Both the position numbers and the translations under genes were made by a program. The notes under the pieces are model-generated. The model was given only the letters and a program-made list of their open reading frames with translations. It had not been told where the DNA came from and searched no databases. Shown piece after piece: positions 23,124-37,118 of a stretch of 38,333 bases of DNA. This DNA is from Flavobacteriales bacterium (GTDB lineage: Bacteria > Bacteroidota > Bacteroidia > Flavobacteriales_D > Crocinitomicaceae): the NCBI GenBank assembly GCA_947380375.1, contig CANCQX010000011.1:1-38333 (forward strand). Direction: 5' to 3'. Within the stretch, counting starts at the first letter, position 1. Every line of letters starts with the position of its first letter.

Positions 23124-24605
23124 TTAATCCCTGAGGCACCTAACAGACAACCCATTAGGCTTATTGATGTAGTCTATTCTTGCACTGCCATCGAAGTCGT
23201 ACAAGCCGCAGAACCAAGCATCGCTTGCACCGGGCTCTGTAGAACTCCACCAGTTACCGTTGCTGCCAATGCTGTAGTAATTCCCCTCGTAGTAGCGGTA
23301 ACCGCCCGGAAGACCTGTAAATAATGACGTATTCGCAGCGTCTGTATTTGGGCTATTCCAGCTTGTTGTGCCTGCTTCCTTCATTTTACCTCCTGCTACA
23401 GTTGTTCCTACTAAATAATCCGTTAAAACGATCCATTCAGCGTCTGTAGGTACATGCCATCCTGTTGGGCAAACATTTTTATTGCCATTCATAGTTGGGC
23501 TTACAGCATACCAATTGTATAGTTTACCGTATTTGGTATTATTGGCTGCATCGTTGTTATAATAAGACCATGCTCCTGTGGTATTATTTTGCCATAATGT
23601 ATTATCCGTAATGTTTAGTATAGAAGTACCATCATTGTAATTCGTTACTTTTAAGTTCTCCGCCATCCATTGTTGGTTGCCTATGTTCACGGTTTTATAA
23701 AGATTACCATCTATATCGGTTATGCTTTTAGCATATCCTGGTATCAAAGTCCAAATTAAATTTCCATTCGAAATTGTTAAAAATTGATCATTTGTCCCTG
23801 GATTTAATGTAACCCATGCGTTTCCATTCCAATACATAATTTGGTTTGTGGCAGTTCCATTACTAAATCCATTTCCTACTGGTCCAGTAGTACCAATCTC
23901 TCCTTTATCTCCTTTGGTACCAACATCCCCTTTTAATCCTTGGTCTCCTTTTAAACCTTGATCTCCTTTTAATCCTTTATCTCCTTGAATACCTTGGTCT
24001 CCTTTTAAACCTTGATCTCCTGTTAATCCTTTATCTCCTTGCACACCTTGGTCTCCTTTTAAACCTTGATCTCCTGTAAATCCTTTATCTCCTTTGGTAC
24101 CAACATCTCCTTTAGAACCTGCTGTTCCCGGTAAACCATTTGCACCTGTTAAACCTTGTGTTCCTGAATCTCCCTTTTCTCCCTTTTCCCCTTTCGGCCC
24201 AGGTTGGCTATTTGCAGCATACAAAGCATACGGCACACTCAACAACTGGCTTGTAGTTGTTAACGAATAATTTGTTCCACCTGCCACATCTGTTTCTGTT
24301 TTTACAAAGTAAGGCCCATTTGCCCAATCAACGCTTGCGAAAGTTCCGCTAACAACTGTTCCGCCACCGATAGCGATGCTCACCAACCCATTGTTATTGG
24401 AAGTTGGTGTATGTGTTTCTACATATACTGCCTTTCCAGTTTCAGAACCTTGCAACAAACTGATTTTCATTCCAACTTTTTTGTTAGACACAAGGGCATT
24501 ATCGGTTCCTCGCACTACTGCTTGGTAGCTAAAACTTTGTGGAGCTTGCGCCCATAAACTTGCGGAGATTAATACCGCTGATAAAACTGTAAAAAATTTG
24601 TTCAT
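23124..24605 (-). CDS. Secreted collagen-like protein with C-terminal FISUMP domain
   Basis: The 493-residue protein has a signal peptide (1-20, ending LWAQ) and an N-terminal domain ending QLLSVPYALYA (about 21-132), common in Bacteroidota surface proteins. It is followed by 36 or so Gly-X-Y triplets (136-244, rich in GDKG, GDQG and GLKG). The C-terminal half is a FISUMP domain (about 305-493): YKTVNIGNQQWMAENLK, YNWYAV, CPTGWHVPTDAEW, LPGGYR, WWSST and VRCLRD. Collagen-like repeats form trimeric stalks, so a surface adhesin or stalked binding protein is likely. No type IX sorting tail is present. It follows the small T9SS-tagged gene by 5 bases. Confidence 0.88.
   Translation of the reverse strand: MNKFFTVLSAVLISASLWAQAPQSFSYQAVVRGTDNALVSNKKVGMKISLLQGSETGKAVYVETHTPTSNNNGLVSIAIGGGTVVSGTFASVDWANGPYFVKTETDVAGGTNYSLTTTSQLLSVPYALYAANSQPGPKGEKGEKGDSGTQGLTGANGLPGTAGSKGDVGTKGDKGFTGDQGLKGDQGVQGDKGLTGDQGLKGDQGIQGDKGLKGDQGLKGDQGLKGDVGTKGDKGEIGTTGPVGNGFSNGTATNQIMYWNGNAWVTLNPGTNDQFLTISNGNLIWTLIPGYAKSITDIDGNLYKTVNIGNQQWMAENLKVTNYNDGTSILNITDNTLWQNNTTGAWSYYNNDAANNTKYGKLYNWYAVSPTMNGNKNVCPTGWHVPTDAEWIVLTDYLVGTTVAGGKMKEAGTTSWNSPNTDAANTSLFTGLPGGYRYYEGNYYSIGSNGNWWSSTEPGASDAWFCGLYDFDGSARIDYINKPNGLSVRCLRD
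23874..24200 (-). repeat. Collagen-coding tandem repeat with 54-bp period
   Basis: The DNA for residues 136-244 repeats every 9 bases as Gly-X-Y codons. It has a longer unit of 18 residues / 54 bases (GDQGLKGDQGxQGDKGLx), about two near-identical copies plus degenerate ones. Such tracts can change length by slippage or recombination while staying in frame. Confidence 0.75.
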
Positions 24606-24610
24606 ACTTA

Positions 24611-25081
24611 CTAGTTTTTAATGATTTTAAACGTTTGTACTTTTTTTCCCTCGTTGTTCACTTCAACGAAATAAGTTGCTACGGGCAATTGTTTCATATC
24701 GATGGTTGTTTCTTCCGAATGCATCGATGCTTCCGAAATTACTTTTCCTTCTAAATCAACTAACTTGTAAGCTAAGTTTTCTTTGTTGTAATTACCAACA
24801 CGCAAATTCAATAGCTCTTGCGTAGGGTTTGGATAGGCCATCAAAGAAAGTTGCAAGGCGTTTTCTTCCAAACTTAAGGTAGAAATTTCAAAGGCGTATT
24901 GTACCCCTTGACTCACCGAACCAGAAGTGTTAGAAACACTTTGAAAAGCCACTTGTCCGATGGAATAACTTATCGATCCTGACGCGTTAGAAGTTCCGCC
25001 ACCTGATGCGTTCGTCGATGTTTGACCGAAGACAAATGCTCCCAATAAAAGGCAACTTGTGGTTAAAATAGTTTTTTTCAT
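24611..25081 (-). CDS. Small secreted protein with type IX (Por) sorting domain
   Basis: The 156-residue protein has a signal peptide (1-19, AFVFGQ) and a short Ser/Gly/Asn-rich region (20-65, with SGGGTSNASGSISYSIGQV and VSQGVQYAFEI). It ends with a C-terminal T9SS type A sorting domain (about 80-156): MAYPNPTQELLNLRV, LVDLEGKVI, LPVATYFVEV and KVQTFKIIKN. Type IX substrates cross the outer membrane and are attached to the surface or released. It carries almost no passenger and sits 5 bases before the collagen-FISUMP gene, so it may serve that protein as a partner or anchor. That role is inference. Confidence 0.85.
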   Translation of the reverse strand: MKKTILTTSCLLLGAFVFGQTSTNASGGGTSNASGSISYSIGQVAFQSVSNTSGSVSQGVQYAFEISTLSLEENALQLSLMAYPNPTQELLNLRVGNYNKENLAYKLVDLEGKVISEASMHSEETTIDMKQLPVATYFVEVNNEGKKVQTFKIIKN

Positions 25082-28530: not shown

Positions 28531-28565
28531 ATAAAAAAACTGATAAGCAAATATAGCTAATCAGT
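28531..28565 (-). terminator. Terminator closing the PqqD-to-TPR operon
   Basis: On the minus strand, ACTGATTAGC and GCTTATCAGT form a 10-bp stem with one mismatch around TATATTT, followed by a run of seven T. It lies about 30 bases after the stop of the last TPR gene and before menI. Confidence 0.85.
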
Positions 28566-28594: not shown

Positions 28595-29221
28595 CTAGGA
28601 TTTCTTATTACAAAGTGCTAATCCTTCAATTGCTGAAGCATCTAATTGATACATAAGAAGAACTCTATTGAAAAGGACTTTTGCTTCTTCTTTTTTACCT
28701 AAATAATAATTTGTCCAAGCACTCATTGTAATTGCATCGTAATCTAAAGGAAAAAGTGTCAAAGTAACATCAAAATATTTAATTGCTTCAACATAATTTT
28801 TTCTGTAAAAATAAATCATACCAAGTCTGTAATTTACTAATGAATTTTTAGGATCAAAACGAATAATTAGTTTATAATTATTTTCTAATTCTACCCACTT
28901 TTCTTGAGCAACTAAAGGGTTGCATAATCCCCATAAAGGTTCTGTTGCGGTAGGCATTAATGCAATTGCTTTTTTGTAATAAACTACAGAGTTAACATAG
29001 TCTTTGCTTAAATAACTTAACCAACCAATACGTAAATTAACCAAGTAAGATTTATCTGAATATATTGATTGTATTACTTGTAAAGCATTCTTGTAATCTC
29101 CTTTATCCTCTGCCATAAAACTCTTAGCAAAGGCTTCTTGCATAACTTTGGAATCCTGCGCATTTCCATTTATTGAAAACAAAACACATGCAAAAAATAA
29201 AATTCTATTAAATGATTTCAT
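28595..29221 (-). CDS. Secreted TPR protein, paralogue 1
   Basis: The 208-residue protein has a signal peptide (1-21, ending INGNAQ) and four or five tetratricopeptide repeats, such as DYKNALQVIQSIYSD, VVYYKKAIALMP, NYRLGMIYFYRKNYVEAIKYFDVTLTLFP and GKKEEAKVLFNRVLLMY. It is clearly paralogous to the next gene upstream, with about half or more of the residues shared and the highest agreement in the C-terminal half (MSAWTNYYLGK, DASAIEGL). TPRs mediate protein-protein contact; a periplasmic scaffold is likely. It is the last gene of the PqqD/ATP-grasp operon, just before the terminator. Confidence 0.78.
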   Translation of the reverse strand: MKSFNRILFFACVLFSINGNAQDSKVMQEAFAKSFMAEDKGDYKNALQVIQSIYSDKSYLVNLRIGWLSYLSKDYVNSVVYYKKAIALMPTATEPLWGLCNPLVAQEKWVELENNYKLIIRFDPKNSLVNYRLGMIYFYRKNYVEAIKYFDVTLTLFPLDYDAITMSAWTNYYLGKKEEAKVLFNRVLLMYQLDASAIEGLALCNKKS

Positions 29222-29258
29222 AATTTCTATTTTTAAATATTGATTAAAAGTACTAAAC

Positions 29259-29876
29259 TTATTTAATTAATGATAAACCTTCTATAGCAGAAGCATCTCC
29301 TTGATACAATAATAAAACCCTATTAAACAAAACTTTAGCTTCATTTGTTTTACCTAAAAAATAATTTGTCCAAGCGCTCATTAAAAGATTATTATAATCC
29401 AATGGATACAAATTTAAGGCAACATCAAAGTATTTTTTTGCAACCGTATAATTTTTTCGATAATAGTAAATAACTCCTAATTTATAGTGTGCTGTTGCAT
29501 TTTTAGGCTCTAATTTTAAGATATCTAAATATGTTTTCTCTACATCTCCCCATTTCTCAAGTGCAATTTGTGGTGATAATATTGCCCATAAAACTTCCGC
29601 AGAAGCAGGCATTAAATCTATAGCTTTCTTGTAATAATTTATAGCGGATGTGTAATTTTTATCTAAATAACATAACCAACCTAAACGTGTATTGATAGAA
29701 TATGCTTTGTCAGAATAAACATCTTTTAAAACTTGTATAGCTTGATCATATTGATATTTAGCCTCGTATGCATAACTTTTTGCAAATGCAGTTTGTAATA
29801 CCTTACTATCTTGTGAAAATGAGTTTATTGAAACAATTACACAAAGTACTACTAATATTTTTCTTAAAAATTCCAT
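29259..29876 (-). CDS. Secreted TPR protein, paralogue 2
   Basis: The 205-residue protein has a signal peptide (1-21, ending SINSFSQ) and TPR units including YDQAIQVLKDVYSD, INYYKKAIDLMP, YKLGVIYYYRKNYTVAKKYFDVALNLYP and GKTNEAKVLFNRVLLLYQ. It is a tandem duplicate of the following gene. Its start lies 13 bases inside the outer-membrane barrel gene. Both copies keep the QDSKVxQxAFAKS start after the signal peptide and the DASAIEGL end, which suggests that the whole unit is under selection. Its partner may be the TPR part of the barrel protein. Confidence 0.78.
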   Translation of the reverse strand: MEFLRKILVVLCVIVSINSFSQDSKVLQTAFAKSYAYEAKYQYDQAIQVLKDVYSDKAYSINTRLGWLCYLDKNYTSAINYYKKAIDLMPASAEVLWAILSPQIALEKWGDVEKTYLDILKLEPKNATAHYKLGVIYYYRKNYTVAKKYFDVALNLYPLDYNNLLMSAWTNYFLGKTNEAKVLFNRVLLLYQGDASAIEGLSLIK

Positions 29877-31243
29877 TTTAAAGTTGTTGTAATGTTATTA
29901 TTTATATAATTATATTTAGTTATAACTGGAGTATAAAAAACAGTTGGAATAGTTCCTGATTTACTATAACGCGTATAATTTCCTTCTCTAATTTGATTTC
30001 CATAACTAAAAATTACCTCTAGTTTTTTTATAGTAAAATGTAAATCTACTCCAAAATTTTGTAAAACTACATCTGGAGTGTTATATGAGGTAAAACCTAA
30101 ACTCGACATATAATTCATGTGATTTCCTTTCGAATATTTTGCTTCAAACCATAGATTTTTTGAAATTACATACCCAATTTTTTGGCAAAATACATTTTGA
30201 GCAACCTTATTATTGTCGATATAGGCAAATGAAGTATTTCCAAATAATTTAATATTACCTAAAGGAAAGTAAGATATTGAAACCTCTCCTTGGTATTGAT
30301 TCGTTCCATATAAATTGCTATACGTTCCTGTAAGTTGGGGGAAAATATATTTCATTCTTTTTCCTATTGATAACGAACCTAGATAATTTGAATAATTCAC
30401 AGCTATTGAACTATCTATATAAATTAATTTAGTATTTGGGTTTGACACACCTATTGTTGACCAAAAATTAGTAGTGTTTGTTTGAAAAAAAGCTCCTCCT
30501 AATCCTATCAATAATCCATTATTAAATTGATAAGCTAAACCTGTATTATATTGGTATTGTAAATTATTGTATTTTTTTTCAGATTTTAGAGTTCGATCGG
30601 TTGAAAAATTAATTAGATCTTTATAAGTTGCTTCATATTTAGTGAAAACGTTAGTCTGATAACCTGCAACTTTATTATAAAAGTGTAATCTATTTCCAAA
30701 AGTATTTTCTACTACTAATCCTCCTCCATTTGTAACACCACTAGAAATGCTATTTCCTGAAACATAAGAAGGCCCTATTAGTGATCTATCTTGACCTGCT
30801 TTTAAATTTGAATTAATATAAGTACCTCCAGATAAAATAATGCTATCTAATTTCTTTTTAGTATAGCCCACTTTCTTTTGAAATTCTAGCGATAATGAAC
30901 TTGCTAATGCATTCGAATTTTCAGTTCTACCTGTAAATAAATAAGAATAATACAAGTATTCCTGAACTATTTCATTTGCAGGATTCATTGCGAAGGCTGC
31001 TTCAAAATGTTTTAATGAATATTCATAGTTTTTCTCGTTATAAGCTACAATTCCAAGTCTCATTCTTAAATCATAGAAATCGATTCCTTCTTTTAATGCT
31101 TTTCTACCTGTTTCTTTTAAAGCTTTGAAATCGTTTTTCAAATATTCCGAGTAAGATAAACTATCGATGCTAGAATAGGAAACTGTTTCTTGAGAAAATG
31201 TAACATTCGAAATAATCAATATAAATACAATTAAATAACGCAT
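29864..31243 (-). CDS. TPR protein with C-terminal outer-membrane beta-barrel
   Basis: The 459-residue protein has a signal peptide (1-17), about 110 residues of TPR-like helices (RKALKEGIDFYDLRMRLGIVAYNEKNYEYSLKHFEAAFAMNP), then a barrel-like domain (about 135-459). The barrel part has alternating aromatic strands (GLLIGLGGAFFQ, GEVSISYFPLG, LWFEAKYSKG) and the final residues TTTLKWNF; a C-terminal phenylalanine is the usual outer-membrane insertion signal. It overlaps the UT-M23 gene by 13 bases and the next TPR gene by 13 bases. A pore or anchor linking periplasmic TPR proteins to the surface is a reasonable inference. Confidence 0.78.
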   Translation of the reverse strand: MRYLIVFILIISNVTFSQETVSYSSIDSLSYSEYLKNDFKALKETGRKALKEGIDFYDLRMRLGIVAYNEKNYEYSLKHFEAAFAMNPANEIVQEYLYYSYLFTGRTENSNALASSLSLEFQKKVGYTKKKLDSIILSGGTYINSNLKAGQDRSLIGPSYVSGNSISSGVTNGGGLVVENTFGNRLHFYNKVAGYQTNVFTKYEATYKDLINFSTDRTLKSEKKYNNLQYQYNTGLAYQFNNGLLIGLGGAFFQTNTTNFWSTIGVSNPNTKLIYIDSSIAVNYSNYLGSLSIGKRMKYIFPQLTGTYSNLYGTNQYQGEVSISYFPLGNIKLFGNTSFAYIDNNKVAQNVFCQKIGYVISKNLWFEAKYSKGNHMNYMSSLGFTSYNTPDVVLQNFGVDLHFTIKKLEVIFSYGNQIREGNYTRYSKSGTIPTVFYTPVITKYNYINNNITTTLKWNF

Positions 31244-33396
31244 ACATAAGATTTTATAATTCCATTTTGTGTAAAACTGAATTGGTGAATATTATTTTCT
31301 TTTATTTCTATTTCAAAACTTACTTTTCTAAAGTTGAAGTTCAAAAATTTGGCCTCTACACTAGATGTTATAGTTGTTGAAGTAGGTTGATGGACATTAT
31401 CTATTTTTGTCGATTGAGATATATATGATGCCTTCGTAAAAAGATAAAAAGGAGCTACAAAATCCTGAAACCATTGAAATAATGGGCTATTAAAATAATT
31501 CAAAGAAACAGAATCAGTTACCTCTACATTTTCATAACAACCTAATAAAACACGATAAGAAGCTAAAAAGAAATAAAATAAGAGAGAATTTCTACTGCCT
31601 TCAAAATCGTAGAAATAAAACATCGTTCCATCATTTACAAAATAGGCTACCGACTTTGATTTTGAACAATACAGATAACTTCTATTCAACTCATCTGTAT
31701 GTACTTCCCAAGTTACCTCATCATTTGTGTCGCTACTTTTAAATGTAATTTTTCTTTCTGGAATAAAAGCGAAACTTTCTGTCAACAAACTATGAACCTC
31801 AACATTACTGATTAATGTTTCTTCTTTAGGGACTTCAGAAATCTTCAATGTGCGCTTATTCTTTTCTTTTTCTATAAAATATGCAATTGGATAGGCTACT
31901 GTTTTAGAACCTATAATTGGTGATAATTGCAATTGAAAATGAATATGCGGTTCTGGCGATCTTCCCGAATTACCACAAGTTGCTAAAACGGTTCCTTTCA
32001 TAACGTAATCACCTACGACCACTTTAAATGAGTCTTTTTTAATATGACTAATTTGAGTGAATAAGCCGTTTTGATGATTTAATATGATTGTATTTCCCCA
32101 ATTTTCAACTATATTAACTCCAGATATTTCATTTTCTTCAACTGTATTTATAATATCGTAAACAAATCCGTCTAAAGGAGCAACAATTGGTTTGTTATAA
32201 CAGAAAAAATCTTCTTTTCCCGAACCAGTTCCTTGAAAAGTAGTAGTTGTTTCATCTACAATTACAAAGTCTAATGCTTTCCCCCATTCTCCCAAATGTG
32301 TTATTTTTCCATCATAACCTTGACTAACAAACCAATCTCCCCAAAAAGGTAAATAAACCTTTGCTAAATGTGCATTTTTAAAACGATTTAAAGAAGTTTT
32401 GTATTTATAAATTGTTTTCTCTGCGGAGTAATATTGAATAGTAACTAAATGTAAAAATTTATGAAACCATCTTTGCTGTAAAAACAATAAAAACAAGGAT
32501 ATTATAACGCTAAATGAAAGTGTAAATGACTTTAGCTGAAATACATTCATAGTTTTGTTCAAGAAAATCATTAACATCATTAAGATTGGAGTCAAACAAA
32601 AAACCGCCAAGTAGCTGTAAAAGTTTGGTATTAAATAAAAACACCCAATCCCAATTGCCATAAAGATGAAATTCGAACCTACTAAATTTAAATTCAAATC
32701 ATTTACATCAGCTCCAAAAGCGTTATAAAATAAATACGCTGAAAGAAAACCTACTAAACTCAAGGTAAAAGCAATTCGAGAGAAATACAAAATAGCACCT
32801 GCAACTAAAATTCCAGCTAAAACACTTGTTTGAAAAAAGGTTCCTGCTAATGTTTTAAAATAAATCAATGCAAATTTAGGAATCGAAATTGCATCAAATA
32901 AATGTACAAATTGATAAAACGAAGAGCTTTCTACTTTTGCTAAATGATTCAGTACAAAAGCATGATCCTCATTTAAATAGATATTTGTAAAACTTCCTGC
33001 CGACATCGAAATAATACAGTAAGTCGTAATGAAAGGAAATGCTAAAAAAGGAATTTTATGCCTGCTAAAAATGCCGTGTAGCCATACTGAAATTATAAGT
33101 AACATTATAATCGCAACAACAAATAATAAGATAAAAGCTGTAGTTATTTCGTATTGAAAACCAAGAAATAAACCCAATAATAATGCGTTAAATCCATAAA
33201 GTCCCTCCCCTATCAAATGTCTATTTATTCCTGTTAAATAAGCAATTGAATTAATTAAAACTACCGATAACAATCCTGACAATCCTAAATGTGGGGTAAA
33301 GAATGTAATTAGCAGAATAACCAATGCCAATACTTTATCCACTGAATAAAAAATCTGACTGTAACTATTCAATATGGTATTAACCCAAAATTTCAT
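31231..33396 (-). CDS. Urea transporter / M23 (LytM) fusion protein
   Basis: The 721-residue protein starts with about ten membrane segments (20-315) that carry urea-channel signatures: GEGLYGFNALLLGLFLGF (61-80) and FLAFPFITTY (117-126), close to the UT family LPxxTxPF element. Residues about 360-495 form an M23 fold: KPIVAPLDGFV, WGNTIILNHQNG, VVVGDYVMKGTVLATCGNSG and the metal HxH at H484/H486. The usual first metal motif HxxxD is G372-K-A-L-D376, so one ligand is changed, with H367 as a possible substitute. A C-terminal region of about 220 residues is unrecognised. It may couple urea or amide flow to wall remodelling or act as a non-catalytic LytM. Confidence 0.82.
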   Translation of the reverse strand: MKFWVNTILNSYSQIFYSVDKVLALVILLITFFTPHLGLSGLLSVVLINSIAYLTGINRHLIGEGLYGFNALLLGLFLGFQYEITTAFILLFVVAIIMLLIISVWLHGIFSRHKIPFLAFPFITTYCIISMSAGSFTNIYLNEDHAFVLNHLAKVESSSFYQFVHLFDAISIPKFALIYFKTLAGTFFQTSVLAGILVAGAILYFSRIAFTLSLVGFLSAYLFYNAFGADVNDLNLNLVGSNFIFMAIGIGCFYLIPNFYSYLAVFCLTPILMMLMIFLNKTMNVFQLKSFTLSFSVIISLFLLFLQQRWFHKFLHLVTIQYYSAEKTIYKYKTSLNRFKNAHLAKVYLPFWGDWFVSQGYDGKITHLGEWGKALDFVIVDETTTTFQGTGSGKEDFFCYNKPIVAPLDGFVYDIINTVEENEISGVNIVENWGNTIILNHQNGLFTQISHIKKDSFKVVVGDYVMKGTVLATCGNSGRSPEPHIHFQLQLSPIIGSKTVAYPIAYFIEKEKNKRTLKISEVPKEETLISNVEVHSLLTESFAFIPERKITFKSSDTNDEVTWEVHTDELNRSYLYCSKSKSVAYFVNDGTMFYFYDFEGSRNSLLFYFFLASYRVLLGCYENVEVTDSVSLNYFNSPLFQWFQDFVAPFYLFTKASYISQSTKIDNVHQPTSTTITSSVEAKFLNFNFRKVSFEIEIKENNIHQFSFTQNGIIKSYVCVI

Positions 33397-33410
33397 TTTA
33401 GCTTTTAACT

Positions 33411-33490
33411 TTTAGTAATTAGCGATAAAGTTATTAGTTTTTAGCAATTAGTCATTAGCAAAAAACTAACAACTAATTACCATAAACTAA
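33411..33490. repeat. Intergenic imperfect inverted repeat (TTAGTAATTAG type)
   Basis: GTTATTAGTTTTTAGC (33430-33445) and GCAAAAAACTAACAAC (33458-33473) are inverted copies at 14 of 16 positions, around a 12-base loop. TTAGTAATTAGC-like outer arms at 33411-33429 and 33475-33490 extend the symmetry. It fills the 100-base gap between the decarboxylase and UT-M23 genes. Confidence 0.75.
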
Positions 33491-33496
33491 TTTCTA

Positions 33497-34849
33497 CTAG
33501 ATATTTTTTAAATGCTCGGGCATTCTTTCCAATTCCATCATTGTATCTAATGATTCGTTTTCACGAAGAATATGTGATTTTCCTTCCATATCTATCATTA
33601 CAATTTTTGGTCTCATTTGTATGAACTGCATCCATTGTGTCATATTGTAAGCTCCAACTTTATGAACAACAACTTGATCTCCTTTGTTTAACAATGGTAA
33701 ATTTATACTTTCTCTGATACAATCGATATTCATACACAATGGTCCATAAATTACCATATCTTCTGTATGGTGAGTAAACTCTTGCGCTGGAGAAATTTTG
33801 TAATCGTACCAGAAAGCATTGAATAATAAGTTTACTCCAAAATCCATTATTGTTGCTCTTCTATCGTCACTCAATCTTTTTGTAGCAACTACTGATCCAA
33901 TCAACCAAGCTGCATCGTCAATTAACGCTCTTCCTGATTCCAATATTATTGTCGGTAATTCATCCTGAGCAAAATTTGAATTTAAAATAGCCGAAGTAAT
34001 TACTTCTGCATAATCATCTATAGTTGGAACGATATCTGCACCTTGTAAATAAGAACCTTTTAATGTGTTAGTTGAAGCAAATCCTCCTCCTAAATCTAAA
34101 TACTGAATTGGTTTACCTGTTTTCAATTTCACATTCGTTGCTAAATCACACAACTTATAAGCAGCTGTTGCATAAGCACTTGTAGACAACATGAATGTTC
34201 CAATATGACTATGTAAACCAACTAATTCTAACTCTTTATGGGATAAAATTTTGATAATTGCATTCCAAGCCTGACCATTTTCATAATTGAAGCCGAAACG
34301 ATCCCACATAGGGTAAATTCCTGTATCCATATTTACACGAATAGCAACTCTTGCTTTTTTACCTGTCCCATCTAACAAACCAACTAACGAATATAATTCG
34401 TCAAAGTGATCAATATGAATTAATGAATTATTTTCAACTGCTAATGCTAAATCTTCTTCTGTTTTATCTGGACCATTGAAAATAATTTTATTTCCTTCCA
34501 CTCCGTTTAATAAAGCTTTCTTGTATTCATAGATTGAAACTACTTCTGCCCATGACCCTTCCTGATGAAATACATTACAAACTGCGCTTAAGTAGTTTGT
34601 TTTGTAACTCCACGCAAATTGAATTTTTGGGTATCTAGTTTTAAATGCTCTGTTTGCATTTTGTACATTTTTACGGATTTGTCTTTCAGAAATAACGAAA
34701 CACGGTGATCCATAATCTTCGATTAATTTACTTACTCGAATTCCATCTAAATGTGTTACTGGTGCGAATTCTGTTTTTGTTCCAAATTTATTCATTGAAC
34801 CTGTATTCAACTTTTGAATAAACGGTCTCTCGTATGATAACTTGCTCAT
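33497..34849 (-). CDS. Fold-type III PLP-dependent decarboxylase
   Basis: The 450-residue enzyme belongs to the alanine racemase / diaminopimelate-ornithine decarboxylase fold. PLP lysine K83 lies in FAWSYKTNYL, the ring-stacking histidine in LHSHIGTF (213-215), the phosphate-binding glycines in LDLGGGF (252-258), ESGRALID at 304-311, the catalytic cysteine C372 in YGPLCMNID, and Y401 in VGAYNMTQW. The substrate is unknown: the family includes diaminopimelate, ornithine, carboxynorspermidine and carrier-bound glutamyl decarboxylases. Pairing with an ATP-grasp ligase and a PqqD-like carrier points more to a conjugated or peptide-bound amino acid than to lysine synthesis. It begins 122 bases after the ATP-grasp gene, a gap filled by an inverted repeat. 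Confidence 0.82.
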   Translation of the reverse strand: MSKLSYERPFIQKLNTGSMNKFGTKTEFAPVTHLDGIRVSKLIEDYGSPCFVISERQIRKNVQNANRAFKTRYPKIQFAWSYKTNYLSAVCNVFHQEGSWAEVVSIYEYKKALLNGVEGNKIIFNGPDKTEEDLALAVENNSLIHIDHFDELYSLVGLLDGTGKKARVAIRVNMDTGIYPMWDRFGFNYENGQAWNAIIKILSHKELELVGLHSHIGTFMLSTSAYATAAYKLCDLATNVKLKTGKPIQYLDLGGGFASTNTLKGSYLQGADIVPTIDDYAEVITSAILNSNFAQDELPTIILESGRALIDDAAWLIGSVVATKRLSDDRRATIMDFGVNLLFNAFWYDYKISPAQEFTHHTEDMVIYGPLCMNIDCIRESINLPLLNKGDQVVVHKVGAYNMTQWMQFIQMRPKIVMIDMEGKSHILRENESLDTMMELERMPEHLKNI

Positions 34850-34880
34850 AATATTTTTAGTTTTATAATGTTATTTTTTT

Positions 34881-34969
34881 TAGATTCAAGATTTTAAGAT
34901 TTAAAGACTTATTAGTTTATTAAGTTATAAATAAGTCTTTCTTCTTATATTCTTGTATCTTCTAGTCTA
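34881..34969. repeat. Intergenic imperfect inverted repeat (AAGAT/AAGAC type)
   Basis: AAAGACTTATT (34903-34913) and AATAAGTCTTT (34930-34940) form a perfect 11-bp stem around a 16-base loop. The outer arms (34881-34902 and 34941-34969) continue imperfectly with TTCAAGAT, TTAAGAT and their inverses. It is the same family as the elements at 7111 and 18265. Confidence 0.78.
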
Positions 34970-34971
34970 TT

Positions 34972-36021
34972 CTAAAGTTCTCCTAAAGTTGAAATTTTTT
35001 CGTAATCCTTAATATCTACTATTTGATCGAATGAAAAACGGACAAATAATTTACCTACATCATACGATTCAAAAGGTTTTACTTCTTCTCCTAAAGCCAT
35101 TCTAACCAATGCTTCTGGATGATTTTGACCACAACCTTTTGCTAAGTATACCCATGCAGGGAATCGTGGATTCATTTCTAATAAGTAGTATTCTCCTTCT
35201 TTGGTTTTGATGAATTCTAATTCACAACCACCCTTCCATTTCGAATTACTAATGACACGGTTTGTTATTTCAATTAAATTCTCATCGTCTAAAGATACTC
35301 CTGCCCAAGCTTTCCCTTTATCGGTAATGTACAGTTTTCTCATTGGTACTGCTCCGATACAATTTCCTTTTCCGTCTCCGATTGCTGTTACGTTTACTTC
35401 ATTTCCGCTAACAAATTCTTGAACGATAATTGGTAATCCCCATTTCGCACTGATTTTGTGAAAATAATTGACCGCTTGTTCTGGCGTTGCAGCTATTGAA
35501 GCATCGTAATATTTTCCTTTAATCACTAATGGATATGTAAAATCATTTTTTAATGAATGGATTTCATTTGCTGAAAAGATCATTTTTGCATAAGGTACTT
35601 TTACGCCATTTTCTTCTCCAAATTCATACAAAACTGATTTATGTCTCGATTCAAATTGTTCTTGAGTAGGTAAAAATGTTTCAATTCCAAAATCATTTTT
35701 TAATTGTGTCGCTAATTTTATGAAACTGTGAAGTTCTGCGTCAAAATTTGGAATTATTACATCAATATTTTCTACATCGTGAATGTATCTTAATCTTTCC
35801 AATAAACTTGCTGTTCCTGATGACGGCAATGGAATTGAGTACGATTTATCAACCAAATCACGCATATACAAACCTGGTTCAAGGTTTTCATAGGACAACC
35901 CGATGATTCTCACATCAAAGTACTCGCTTTCCTTTAATGCTCGAATAACAGGTATTCCAGGTCCCGGACTATCAATATTATTGAGTCCTGAAACGGCTAC
36001 TGTTATTTTACGTTTAGTCAT
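34972..36021 (-). CDS. ATP-grasp ligase (CarB/PylC-like)
   Basis: The 349-residue protein has an N-terminal Rossmann-like pre-ATP-grasp domain (ITVAVSGLNNIDSPGPGIPVIRAL). A central ATP-grasp follows, with YPLVIKGK (K168/K170) and QEFVSGNEVN, and the metal-binding glutamate and asparagine in CELEF and LLEMNPRFPAW (282-290). It is closest to PylC / carbamoyl-phosphate synthetase-like carboxylate-amine ligases, which activate a carboxylate as acyl phosphate and join it to an amine. It overlaps the PqqD-like gene by 8 bases, so the two proteins are made together. The acceptor and donor are unknown; a peptide or carrier substrate bound by the PqqD-like protein is the likeliest. Confidence 0.82.
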   Translation of the reverse strand: MTKRKITVAVSGLNNIDSPGPGIPVIRALKESEYFDVRIIGLSYENLEPGLYMRDLVDKSYSIPLPSSGTASLLERLRYIHDVENIDVIIPNFDAELHSFIKLATQLKNDFGIETFLPTQEQFESRHKSVLYEFGEENGVKVPYAKMIFSANEIHSLKNDFTYPLVIKGKYYDASIAATPEQAVNYFHKISAKWGLPIIVQEFVSGNEVNVTAIGDGKGNCIGAVPMRKLYITDKGKAWAGVSLDDENLIEITNRVISNSKWKGGCELEFIKTKEGEYYLLEMNPRFPAWVYLAKGCGQNHPEALVRMALGEEVKPFESYDVGKLFVRFSFDQIVDIKDYEKISTLGEL

Positions 36022-36262
36022 TATTTACAAGTATTTGGTAACTGTTTAACATCATAAAGAAATCTCCAAGATCTTTCTCCAACGTTGATTCGTCAGTTGA
36101 AAATTTCAAAACCAATTCCTTTATTAATTCCTCTTTCGATTTATTTTCTTTTAGTAATCGTATGATTTCTAAACCAACTTGATTTGTTGAGAAAGAATCT
36201 CCAGTTGATGGATTAAAAACAAACCCTGAATCACTGATTGCAATATTTTTATTGATTTGCAT
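36014..36262 (-). CDS. PqqD-like peptide-binding protein
   Basis: The 82-residue protein matches the PqqD fold: AISDSGFVFNPSTGDSFSTNQVGLEII, then a helix (LLKENKSKEELIKELVLKF), and a final helix (LEKDLGDFFMMLNSYQIL). PqqD domains usually bind the leader of a precursor peptide and hand it to a radical SAM, ATP-grasp or other modifying enzyme. No radical SAM gene or precursor peptide is seen nearby. It is the first gene of an operon of about 7.7 kb and overlaps the ATP-grasp gene by 8 bases. A pair of 21-bp-spaced direct repeats lies 59-93 bases upstream. Confidence 0.84.
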   Translation of the reverse strand: MQINKNIAISDSGFVFNPSTGDSFSTNQVGLEIIRLLKENKSKEELIKELVLKFSTDESTLEKDLGDFFMMLNSYQILVNND

Positions 36263-36320
36263 AACGTTTATGTTTTAGTGTGACGCTAAGTAAGGAATTC
36301 TTTTCTGATAAATTTTAAAT

Positions 36321-36355
36321 GTATCGGCGAATGAAAGGAAAGTATCGGGGAATGA
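36321..36355. promoter_or_regulatory. Pair of 14-bp direct repeats with 21-bp spacing (candidate LytTR site)
   Basis: GTATCGGCGAATGA (36321-36334) and GTATCGGGGAATGA (36342-36355) differ at one base and lie 21 bases apart, two turns of the helix. LytTR DNA-binding domains typically bind two direct repeats at this spacing. The site sits upstream of the pqqD-like gene and just downstream of the LytTR regulator gene. Confidence 0.68.
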
Positions 36356-36358
36356 TTC

Positions 36359-36420
36359 TTGGGTGTTGGGGTTTGTATGTGTTTTCAACAATAACCTACA
36401 CAGACCTAAAACCAAACACC
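36359..36420. repeat. Inverted repeat after the LytTR gene (GGTGTTTGG type)
   Basis: A G/T-rich arm at 36359-36381 (GGGTGTTGGGGTTTG, then TGTG) is the imperfect inverse of 36399-36420 (CACAGACC, then AAACCAAACACC). The right arm abuts the LytTR stop codon. It may weaken read-through from the regulator into the pqqD operon, but lacks a T run. Confidence 0.6.
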
Positions 36421-37118
36421 TAATACCCAATCGAAATATACGCTTTAAAAAAGGCTTCTTCGTGACTTTTTCCTATTGGGATTTCAGTAATTCCTAAGTT
36501 GATGGATTTTCCTCTTACAGATTCAATACGATTTATTGGGACGATGTAGGATCTGTGAACTCGGATGAAATCTTTTTCAGGTAATTTTTCTAACGCTTTC
36601 TTAATACTCATTAAGGTTAATACTGGTTTTTTACCTTGGATATGAATTTTAATATAATCGTCTAATGTTTCAATGTATACGATTTCAACTAATGAGATTT
36701 TTACTAAACTATATTCAGATCGAACTTGTAAGAATTGTTCTTCACTATTTGTTGCCTGATTTCTAAATGAATAGATTTCATTCACCTTATTTAAAGTTTG
36801 GCTAAATCGTTTTAAGTCGAACGGATTGAGAAGATAATCTACTGCATTTAAATTAAAAGCTTCAAATGCATGCTCCTTACTATCACTAATAAAGACAACT
36901 AAAGTCTTTTGATTTAAGTTTTGATAAAACTCAAGTCCAGAAATGTTTGGAAAATCGGTGTTAATAAAAATGAGATCAGTTGGGTACTTACGCATATACC
37001 GCGATGCTTCAATCGTACTTGTAAAAGATTTTTCAACTGAAATATATTGCACTCCCTCGCAAAACTTTGTAATCAAGCTTGAAGTTTCGTAAGAATCTAT
37101 TACAATGCAATTTATCAT
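36420..37118 (-). CDS. LytTR response regulator with degenerate receiver
   Basis: The 232-residue protein has an N-terminal receiver-like domain (1-120) and a C-terminal LytTR DNA-binding domain (about 130-232: EIVYIETLDDYIKIHI, LEKLPEKDFIRVHRSYIVPINRI). Receiver catalytic positions are lost: the phospho-acceptor aspartate of the usual LDIxMP is N53 (FINTDFP), the conserved lysine of LLKPF is N98 (LLNPF), and the acidic pair is D8-S9. So it is probably not controlled by phosphorylation, and no histidine kinase is nearby. It lies directly upstream of the pqqD operon on the same strand, with LytTR-like repeats between. Its promoter has a perfect TAAATTTG box. Confidence 0.88.
   Translation of the reverse strand: MINCIVIDSYETSSLITKFCEGVQYISVEKSFTSTIEASRYMRKYPTDLIFINTDFPNISGLEFYQNLNQKTLVVFISDSKEHAFEAFNLNAVDYLLNPFDLKRFSQTLNKVNEIYSFRNQATNSEEQFLQVRSEYSLVKISLVEIVYIETLDDYIKIHIQGKKPVLTLMSIKKALEKLPEKDFIRVHRSYIVPINRIESVRGKSINLGITEIPIGKSHEEAFFKAYISIGY

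Follow-up and report, generated by a model that had tools for sequence, protein, structure and literature searches.

In the rhizoferrin (fig/fsl) pathway of Francisella an ATP-dependent ligase makes an amino acid conjugate, which is then decarboxylated by a pyridoxal phosphate (PLP) enzyme of alanine-racemase fold. Similarly, in butirosin biosynthesis (btrK/btrI) a related decarboxylase, BtrK, acts on a conjugate together with a small partner protein, BtrI, and the ATP-grasp ligase is BtrJ. Both pathways resemble part of an operon located in a 38,333 nt stretch of DNA (the window) from a Flavobacteriales bacterium (Crocinitomicaceae; contig CANCQX010000011.1, assembly GCA_947380375.1). This operon encodes a PqqD-like protein, an ATP-grasp ligase, a PLP decarboxylase, a urea-transporter-fold channel joined to an M23-like domain (UT-M23), an outer-membrane barrel with tetratricopeptide repeats (TPR) and a secreted TPR protein, and comparison across genomes gives good support to these six genes forming the core of a conserved system. 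The fig/fsl ligase is a NIS synthetase whereas that encoded here is of the ATP-grasp type, the citrate-contacting residues of the decarboxylase are changed here, and fig/fsl has no counterpart to PqqD, UT-M23, the TPR proteins or the 14-strand barrel. In the butirosin pathway the partner protein is an acyl carrier protein rather than PqqD, there is no membrane part, and although BtrK structures were matched by the window decarboxylase the similarity is much lower than to FigC. No description of the system was found in the open-licence literature searched, an earlier description elsewhere being possible, and the systems found there share at most the ligase and decarboxylase with this set. The following features were assigned.

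36420-37118, minus strand: LytTR response regulator with receiver and LytTR DNA-binding domains, taken as regulator of the unit in the genus (Pfam LytTR 9e-16, Response_reg 2.5e-11)
36321-36348, minus strand: tandem repeat CCGATAC-N14-CCGATAC (period 21), probable LytTR-type operator of the pqqD operon
36014-36262, minus strand: PqqD-family small protein, 82 aa, first core gene (Pfam PqqD 1.3e-9)
34972-36021, minus strand: ATP-grasp ligase, PRK12767/CPSase-like (Pfam ATP-grasp_3 and ATPgrasp_Ter over cut-off)
33497-34849, minus strand: PLP decarboxylase of alanine-racemase fold, FigC/FslC-like (Orn_Arg_deC_N and Orn_DAP_Arg_deC)
31231-33396, minus strand: UT-M23, with a urea-transporter-fold channel (residues 1-~310), an M23/LytM-fold domain (~344-520) and a predicted C-terminal beta region (~520-721) (UT 9e-41, Peptidase_M23 9e-14)
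29864-31243, minus strand: secreted N-terminal TPR domain followed by a 14-strand outer-membrane beta-barrel (AlphaFold model)
29259-29876, minus strand: secreted TPR protein, 205 aa (TPR families)
28595-29221, minus strand: tandem paralogue of the TPR protein, 208 aa, 57% identical to its neighbour
28531-28565, minus strand: intrinsic terminator of the unit, a stem-loop followed by a U-run

Counting the LytTR regulator, eight genes of the same (minus) strand span 28595-37118; the original prediction had seven, and its overlaps, strand and family assignments otherwise stand. The genes overlap by 8 bases at PqqD/ATP-grasp, 13 at UT-M23/barrel and 13 at barrel/TPR, and are separated elsewhere by four gaps of 157, 122, 100 and 37 bases, so that coupling is tight at three junctions and loose at four. 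The strong terminator proposed for the end of the unit is borne out by its fold (-12.6 kcal/mol, z = -5.07; none of 200 shuffles equally stable), a consensus pattern scan having passed over it because of one stem mismatch.

The ligase was detected in 76 of 395 Bacteroidia genomes taken as an even draw of the class, at 53-83% identity to that of the window, and both ligase and decarboxylase are about two thirds identical to the window proteins across the class. Within the genus almost every genome has the full UT-M23 protein; across the family and order its distribution is patchy. Loci of up to 19 kb around most ligase-bearing genomes were compared, with open reading frames (ORFs) annotated using the window proteins, and clustering of the fetched loci at 90% decarboxylase identity gives 115 groups. 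Almost all complete loci keep the order PqqD - ATP-grasp - decarboxylase - UT-M23 - barrel - TPR, and exceptions mostly come from contig ends, frameshifts, a barrel that escaped recognition or the insertion of a gene; conservation across 115 non-redundant groups is more than chance would give. Order conservation was the check set by the original prediction for a single undescribed system of linked families, and linkage and order are both upheld; membership of the LytTR regulator is not, as this gene is lineage-specific and lies outside the conserved core. The PqqD and ligase genes overlap in 106 of 161 loci, and in 161 of 164 cases the UT-M23 gene either overlaps the one that follows or is no more than 30 bases away from it. 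A TPR gene then follows the barrel in most loci, a second copy being found in the genus and a few other lineages and a single copy in most other loci. The same core order was found in other classes of the phylum (phylum draw); in these the barrel is often encoded on its own behind the TPR gene, as a protein of ~275 residues. A decarboxylase alignment scan over 84,980 species returned more than 583 relatives, the best 80 including Pedobacter paludis, P. fastidiosus, P. nototheniae and Mucilaginibacter myungsuensis as well as metagenome-assembled genomes assigned to Paludibacter and Sediminibacterium. No relative was found in the viral contigs and plasmids searched.

The commonest identified neighbour clusters are regulators, an FG-GAP protein with a type IX secretion system (T9SS)-type tail, barrels and a GNAT acetyltransferase. 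Metal, nitrogen and cell-wall genes were not recognised among the most recurrent clusters, the smaller clusters having been left unannotated. The FG-GAP protein (~280 aa) is encoded directly upstream of pqqD in other classes (L253:5218-6057, L254:5111-5950, L265:13770-14609), and the acetyltransferase (167 aa) occupies this position in nine locus groups (among them L130:8100-8603, where the Pfam match was obtained, L135, L138 and L182). An IF-2B-family gene (match shown for L199) is inserted between decarboxylase and UT-M23 at L179:10364-11311, L194:7538-8368 and L199:10443-11276, two of these three loci coming from records named Bacteroidales.

Ligase and channel occur together in 73 of the 395 class genomes, of which 76 carry the ligase and 83 the channel (Fisher 2e-64). 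In all three ligase-only genomes a contig edge falls inside the channel gene. Ten genomes carry the channel only, and eight of these contain a second enzyme set (P 1e-7) consisting of a VOC-like protein, a type I PLP decarboxylase (Orn/Lys/Arg family) and an ATP-grasp protein over the PRK06524 cut-off. This set adjoins the channel in divergent orientation in six genomes (L223-L225, L228, L229, L239), whilst in two more the second-set ligase lies on another contig of a fragmented assembly; the ninth channel-only genome has the decarboxylase at its contig end and the tenth is 68% complete. The two ligases co-occur in none of the 395 genomes (P 0.001). Shared ancestry makes this value and that for the second set optimistic. 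Replacement of the enzymes by an unrelated decarboxylase and ATP-grasp pair indicates that the channel goes with 'ligate and decarboxylate' chemistry, and its tie to such enzymes is well supported. In three genomes (G083, G099, G206) the PqqD-ligase-decarboxylase block lies apart from the UT-barrel-TPR block, both being kept; contig ends could contribute in two. The halves in G206 are on different contigs (L233, UT-M23-barrel-TPR; L245, PqqD-ligase-decarboxylase), and neighbouring gene order relative to L105 suggests that an inversion split the operon. An apparent decarboxylase-ligase fusion in G179 was discarded as a wrong-frame ORF, and the M23-only matches in G374 and G441 seem to be M23 proteins in their own right, with no channel.

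Where a genome lacks the channel, the second set adjoins a gamma-aminobutyrate (GABA)-type aminotransferase, a carbon-nitrogen hydrolase, a C45 hydrolase and a succinate-semialdehyde-type dehydrogenase, a setting for a ligase acting on a decarboxylation-derived amine. The Puu-type gamma-glutamyl putrescine pathway places a ligase, aminotransferase, aldehyde dehydrogenase and amide hydrolase around such an amine. The second set away from the channel shares these four functions, differing in that an ATP-grasp enzyme replaces the glutamine-synthetase-type ligase, and the catabolic enzymes are absent from channel loci. Many Bacteroidia carry an operon of aminotransferase III, carbon-nitrogen hydrolase, VOC protein, ~915-aa Orn/Lys/Arg-type decarboxylase, PRK06524 ATP-grasp, C45 hydrolase and succinate-semialdehyde-type dehydrogenase (L243, L278, L280-L283, L286, L288, L290; single genes are missing in some loci), which has the appearance of a Puu-like amine pathway whose ligase is of the ATP-grasp type.

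The nearest solved structure to the core decarboxylase is the N-citrylornithine decarboxylase FigC of Francisella (7kh2), for which specificity-setting residues have been named (PMC7857480). Equivalent positions were mapped in 154 family sequences by alignment rather than structure. The PLP-binding Lys, stacking His, PLP Glu and catalytic Cys (K83, H215, E304, C372) are present in 154/154, as is the FigC-type Met adjoining the catalytic Cys (M373), and Y348 is found in 151/154. Position 344 of the specificity helix, which is Asp in ornithine decarboxylase (ODC) and Arg in diaminopimelate decarboxylase (DAPDC), is T in 143, N in 10 and S in one sequence. Fig/fsl likewise has Met beside the catalytic Cys and neither the ODC Asp nor the DAPDC Arg on this helix. 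A DAPDC assignment is contradicted by replacement of Arg343 with T/N and of the acidic residue beside the Cys with M, and the protein scores below the NCBIfam lysA cut-off (219.5 versus 297.9 bits). Given the FigC-type Met and the lack of both the ODC Asp and the DAPDC Arg, the pocket is not expected to hold a free side-chain amine or a distal carboxylate, and this residue signature points to a conjugated amino acid as the probable substrate. The PqqD protein scores 38.7 bits against a Pfam cut-off of 23.4. Its C-terminus is not conserved, for which reason a LysW-like C-terminal carrier was dropped and the carrier role originally assigned to it is not sustained.

The UT-M23 model (pLDDT 92) matches known UT channels, dvUT and UT-B, over its channel domain (Z 33; for dvUT, 3k3f, rmsd 2.4 A over ~306 residues), and the Pfam UT score is 140 bits against a cut-off of 25. 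By alignment of 51 sequences the pore residues of dvUT are partly kept and partly changed: Q24 is retained in 39 and L84 in 38, T130 is S in 44, and T294 is S in 37 and T in 13. By the same alignment the Glu of the second pore half (dvUT E187) is Ala/Gly/Ser in 49/51. By analogy with UT proteins, UT-M23 would conduct a small solute. The known UT/SLC14 channels differ in lacking the C-terminal M23-like domain and these pore substitutions. The zinc domain matches M23 domains (Z 12-15), and H367, D376, H451, H484 and H486 of the zinc site are invariant in 51/51; fold and zinc-site residues are shared with M23/LytM metallopeptidases such as DipM, ShyA and lysostaphin, from which UT-M23 differs in a first His-Asp spacing of nine residues rather than the usual four, in the channel fusion and in its predicted location. 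Both termini of UT proteins are cytoplasmic. The sign of mean loop net charge over the 51 sequences fits this known topology in all loops but one small one, positive on canonical inner and negative on outer loops, and the stretch following the last channel helix carries +2.1 with no further membrane helix. Assuming the N-in/C-in topology of known UTs, these charges place the M23-like domain probably in the cytoplasm, in which case it is unlikely to bridge to the cell wall. The envelope part of the system originally proposed would thus retain the TPR and barrel proteins and lose the M23 domain. A split UT/M23 gene pair in G456 (L261) was considered as proof of this location and dropped, since the break lies in a seven-T run and may be an indel.

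The barrel protein has no Pfam or NCBIfam barrel match, and its AlphaFold model consists of a TPR domain and a 14-strand barrel (pLDDT 93). The best structural matches are FadL, TodX, CymD, CymA and OmpG (Z 19-21), which are small-solute barrels, although a shared fold does not establish function; the predicted folds of both channel and barrel would suit small solutes. Membership of the Slam family was set aside, as only a weak sub-threshold TPR_Slam match was obtained, to a neighbouring TPR protein, and Slam is absent among the fold matches listed; the barrel protein may nonetheless belong there.

The reading which we favour, tentatively and at somewhat less than even chances, is that the six-gene core makes a small amide or amine conjugate which is exported through a passive conduit. 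The ATP-grasp enzyme would join an amino acid, probably via its side chain, to an acyl partner, and the FigC-like decarboxylase would then strip the alpha-carboxylate from the conjugate, with the PqqD-like protein perhaps helping by binding or presenting the substrate. The product would pass the inner membrane passively through the urea-transporter-fold channel, where the M23-like zinc domain, probably on the cytoplasmic side, may gate, bind or finally trim it, and would leave via the 14-strand barrel, the TPR proteins acting as periplasmic adaptors in putative contact with channel and barrel. Several points weigh against this proposal. The proposed FigC citrate contacts are replaced (H357 by I in 154/154, R387 by Q in 154/154 and N389 by M in 145/154, the position being M/L), which makes citrate an improbable acyl partner and the parallel with FigC incomplete. 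The reading does not account for PqqD, M23 domains are to our knowledge otherwise extracytoplasmic, no energised exporter is present in the system, and a passive channel could equally import. A more specific version, which we regard as doubtful, is that UT-M23 combines a channel and a cytoplasmic zinc hydrolase, the latter cleaving the conjugate at the inner pore mouth so that the freed molecule exits via the channel and the TPR-barrel pore; two unrelated enzyme sets would then be fitted to the same hydrolase-channel. We know of no M23-fold domain previously placed inside the cell.

Delivery of the conjugate or amine to the periplasm for attachment to peptidoglycan or the outer membrane, with a periplasmic M23 domain acting on the wall and the TPR and barrel proteins as anchor, is unlikely. 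It would account for an invariant zinc site in a fold shared with cell-wall endopeptidases and for TPR and barrel proteins that are almost always present, but the loop charges favour an M23 domain inside the cell and wall-synthesis genes were not recognised among recurrent neighbours. We consider it improbable that the enzymes build a small metal chelator for export by the membrane proteins, in the manner of the citrate siderophores made with FigC, SbnH or AcsE. The decarboxylase is indeed closest to conjugate decarboxylases serving siderophore assembly; however, the citrate-binding residues are not kept, the enzyme set shows no evident chelating group, and the recurrent neighbours include no recognised TonB-dependent receptor, iron transporter or metal regulator, a single ZIP neighbour being seen. 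There is also little likelihood that barrel and channel import urea or a small amide for processing by the cytoplasmic enzymes and M23-like hydrolase. The UT fold is that of a passive urea/amide channel with a pore that seems largely kept, and FadL/CymA-type barrels act in uptake, yet a ligase that consumes ATP and a decarboxylase speak for biosynthesis and not for scavenging, the second-pore-half Glu is lost as described above, and no urease alpha subunit was found in the genome. Urea handling, raised as a possibility by the original prediction, is not supported, the channel having no urease partner and one polar pore residue of urea channels being changed. Maturation of a ribosomal peptide, recognised by PqqD, modified by the ATP-grasp and decarboxylase enzymes and secreted by the membrane proteins, is very unlikely: PqqD/RRE domains bind leader peptides in known pathways and MccE, a related decarboxylase, acts on a peptide-nucleotide, but the core contains no peptidase/ABC exporter, and a comparison of 1709 small ORFs inside the operons or up to 600 bases away yielded no conserved candidate for a precursor gene (the only matches were overlaps with neighbouring genes among near-identical genomes). 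Of the peptide or carrier-bound amino acid first suggested as the substrate, the decarboxylase signature favours a conjugated amino acid, and a peptide with a co-encoded precursor is not supported.

The LytTR regulator gene is adjacent to the operon in the genus, AraC-type or histidine-kinase regulators holding the same place elsewhere. Each genome of the genus that was searched has one perfect copy of CCGATAC-N14-CCGATAC, located upstream of pqqD, against 0.01 expected by chance in the window with up to one mismatch. Spaced direct repeats are typical of LytTR proteins, and the repeat at 36321-36348 is probably, judged from its sequence and position, a LytTR-type operator of the pqqD operon. 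In two genomes a near-perfect second copy precedes the gene for a YHYH protein bearing a T9SS-type tail, and in a third such a copy precedes an arylsulfotransferase gene (L305, L307, L309), hinting at a small regulon that includes secreted proteins. The flanks of the gene set are ordinary by Pfam and NCBIfam, with an SDR gene upstream and menaquinone-type genes downstream. Elsewhere in the window, a secreted protein with a collagen-like G-x-K repeat stretch is encoded at 23124-24605, adjoined by a short gene (24611-25081) with a Bacteroidota sorting-tail-like end, both read by eye.

Approximately one in five sampled Bacteroidia genomes carries this strictly ordered operon with highly conserved enzymes, which predicts a widespread undescribed metabolite and a new use of the urea-channel fold. 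It further predicts a possible cytoplasmic M23 domain and a case of two unrelated enzyme sets serving one channel. As cultured Pedobacter and Mucilaginibacter carry the operon, the system is directly testable.

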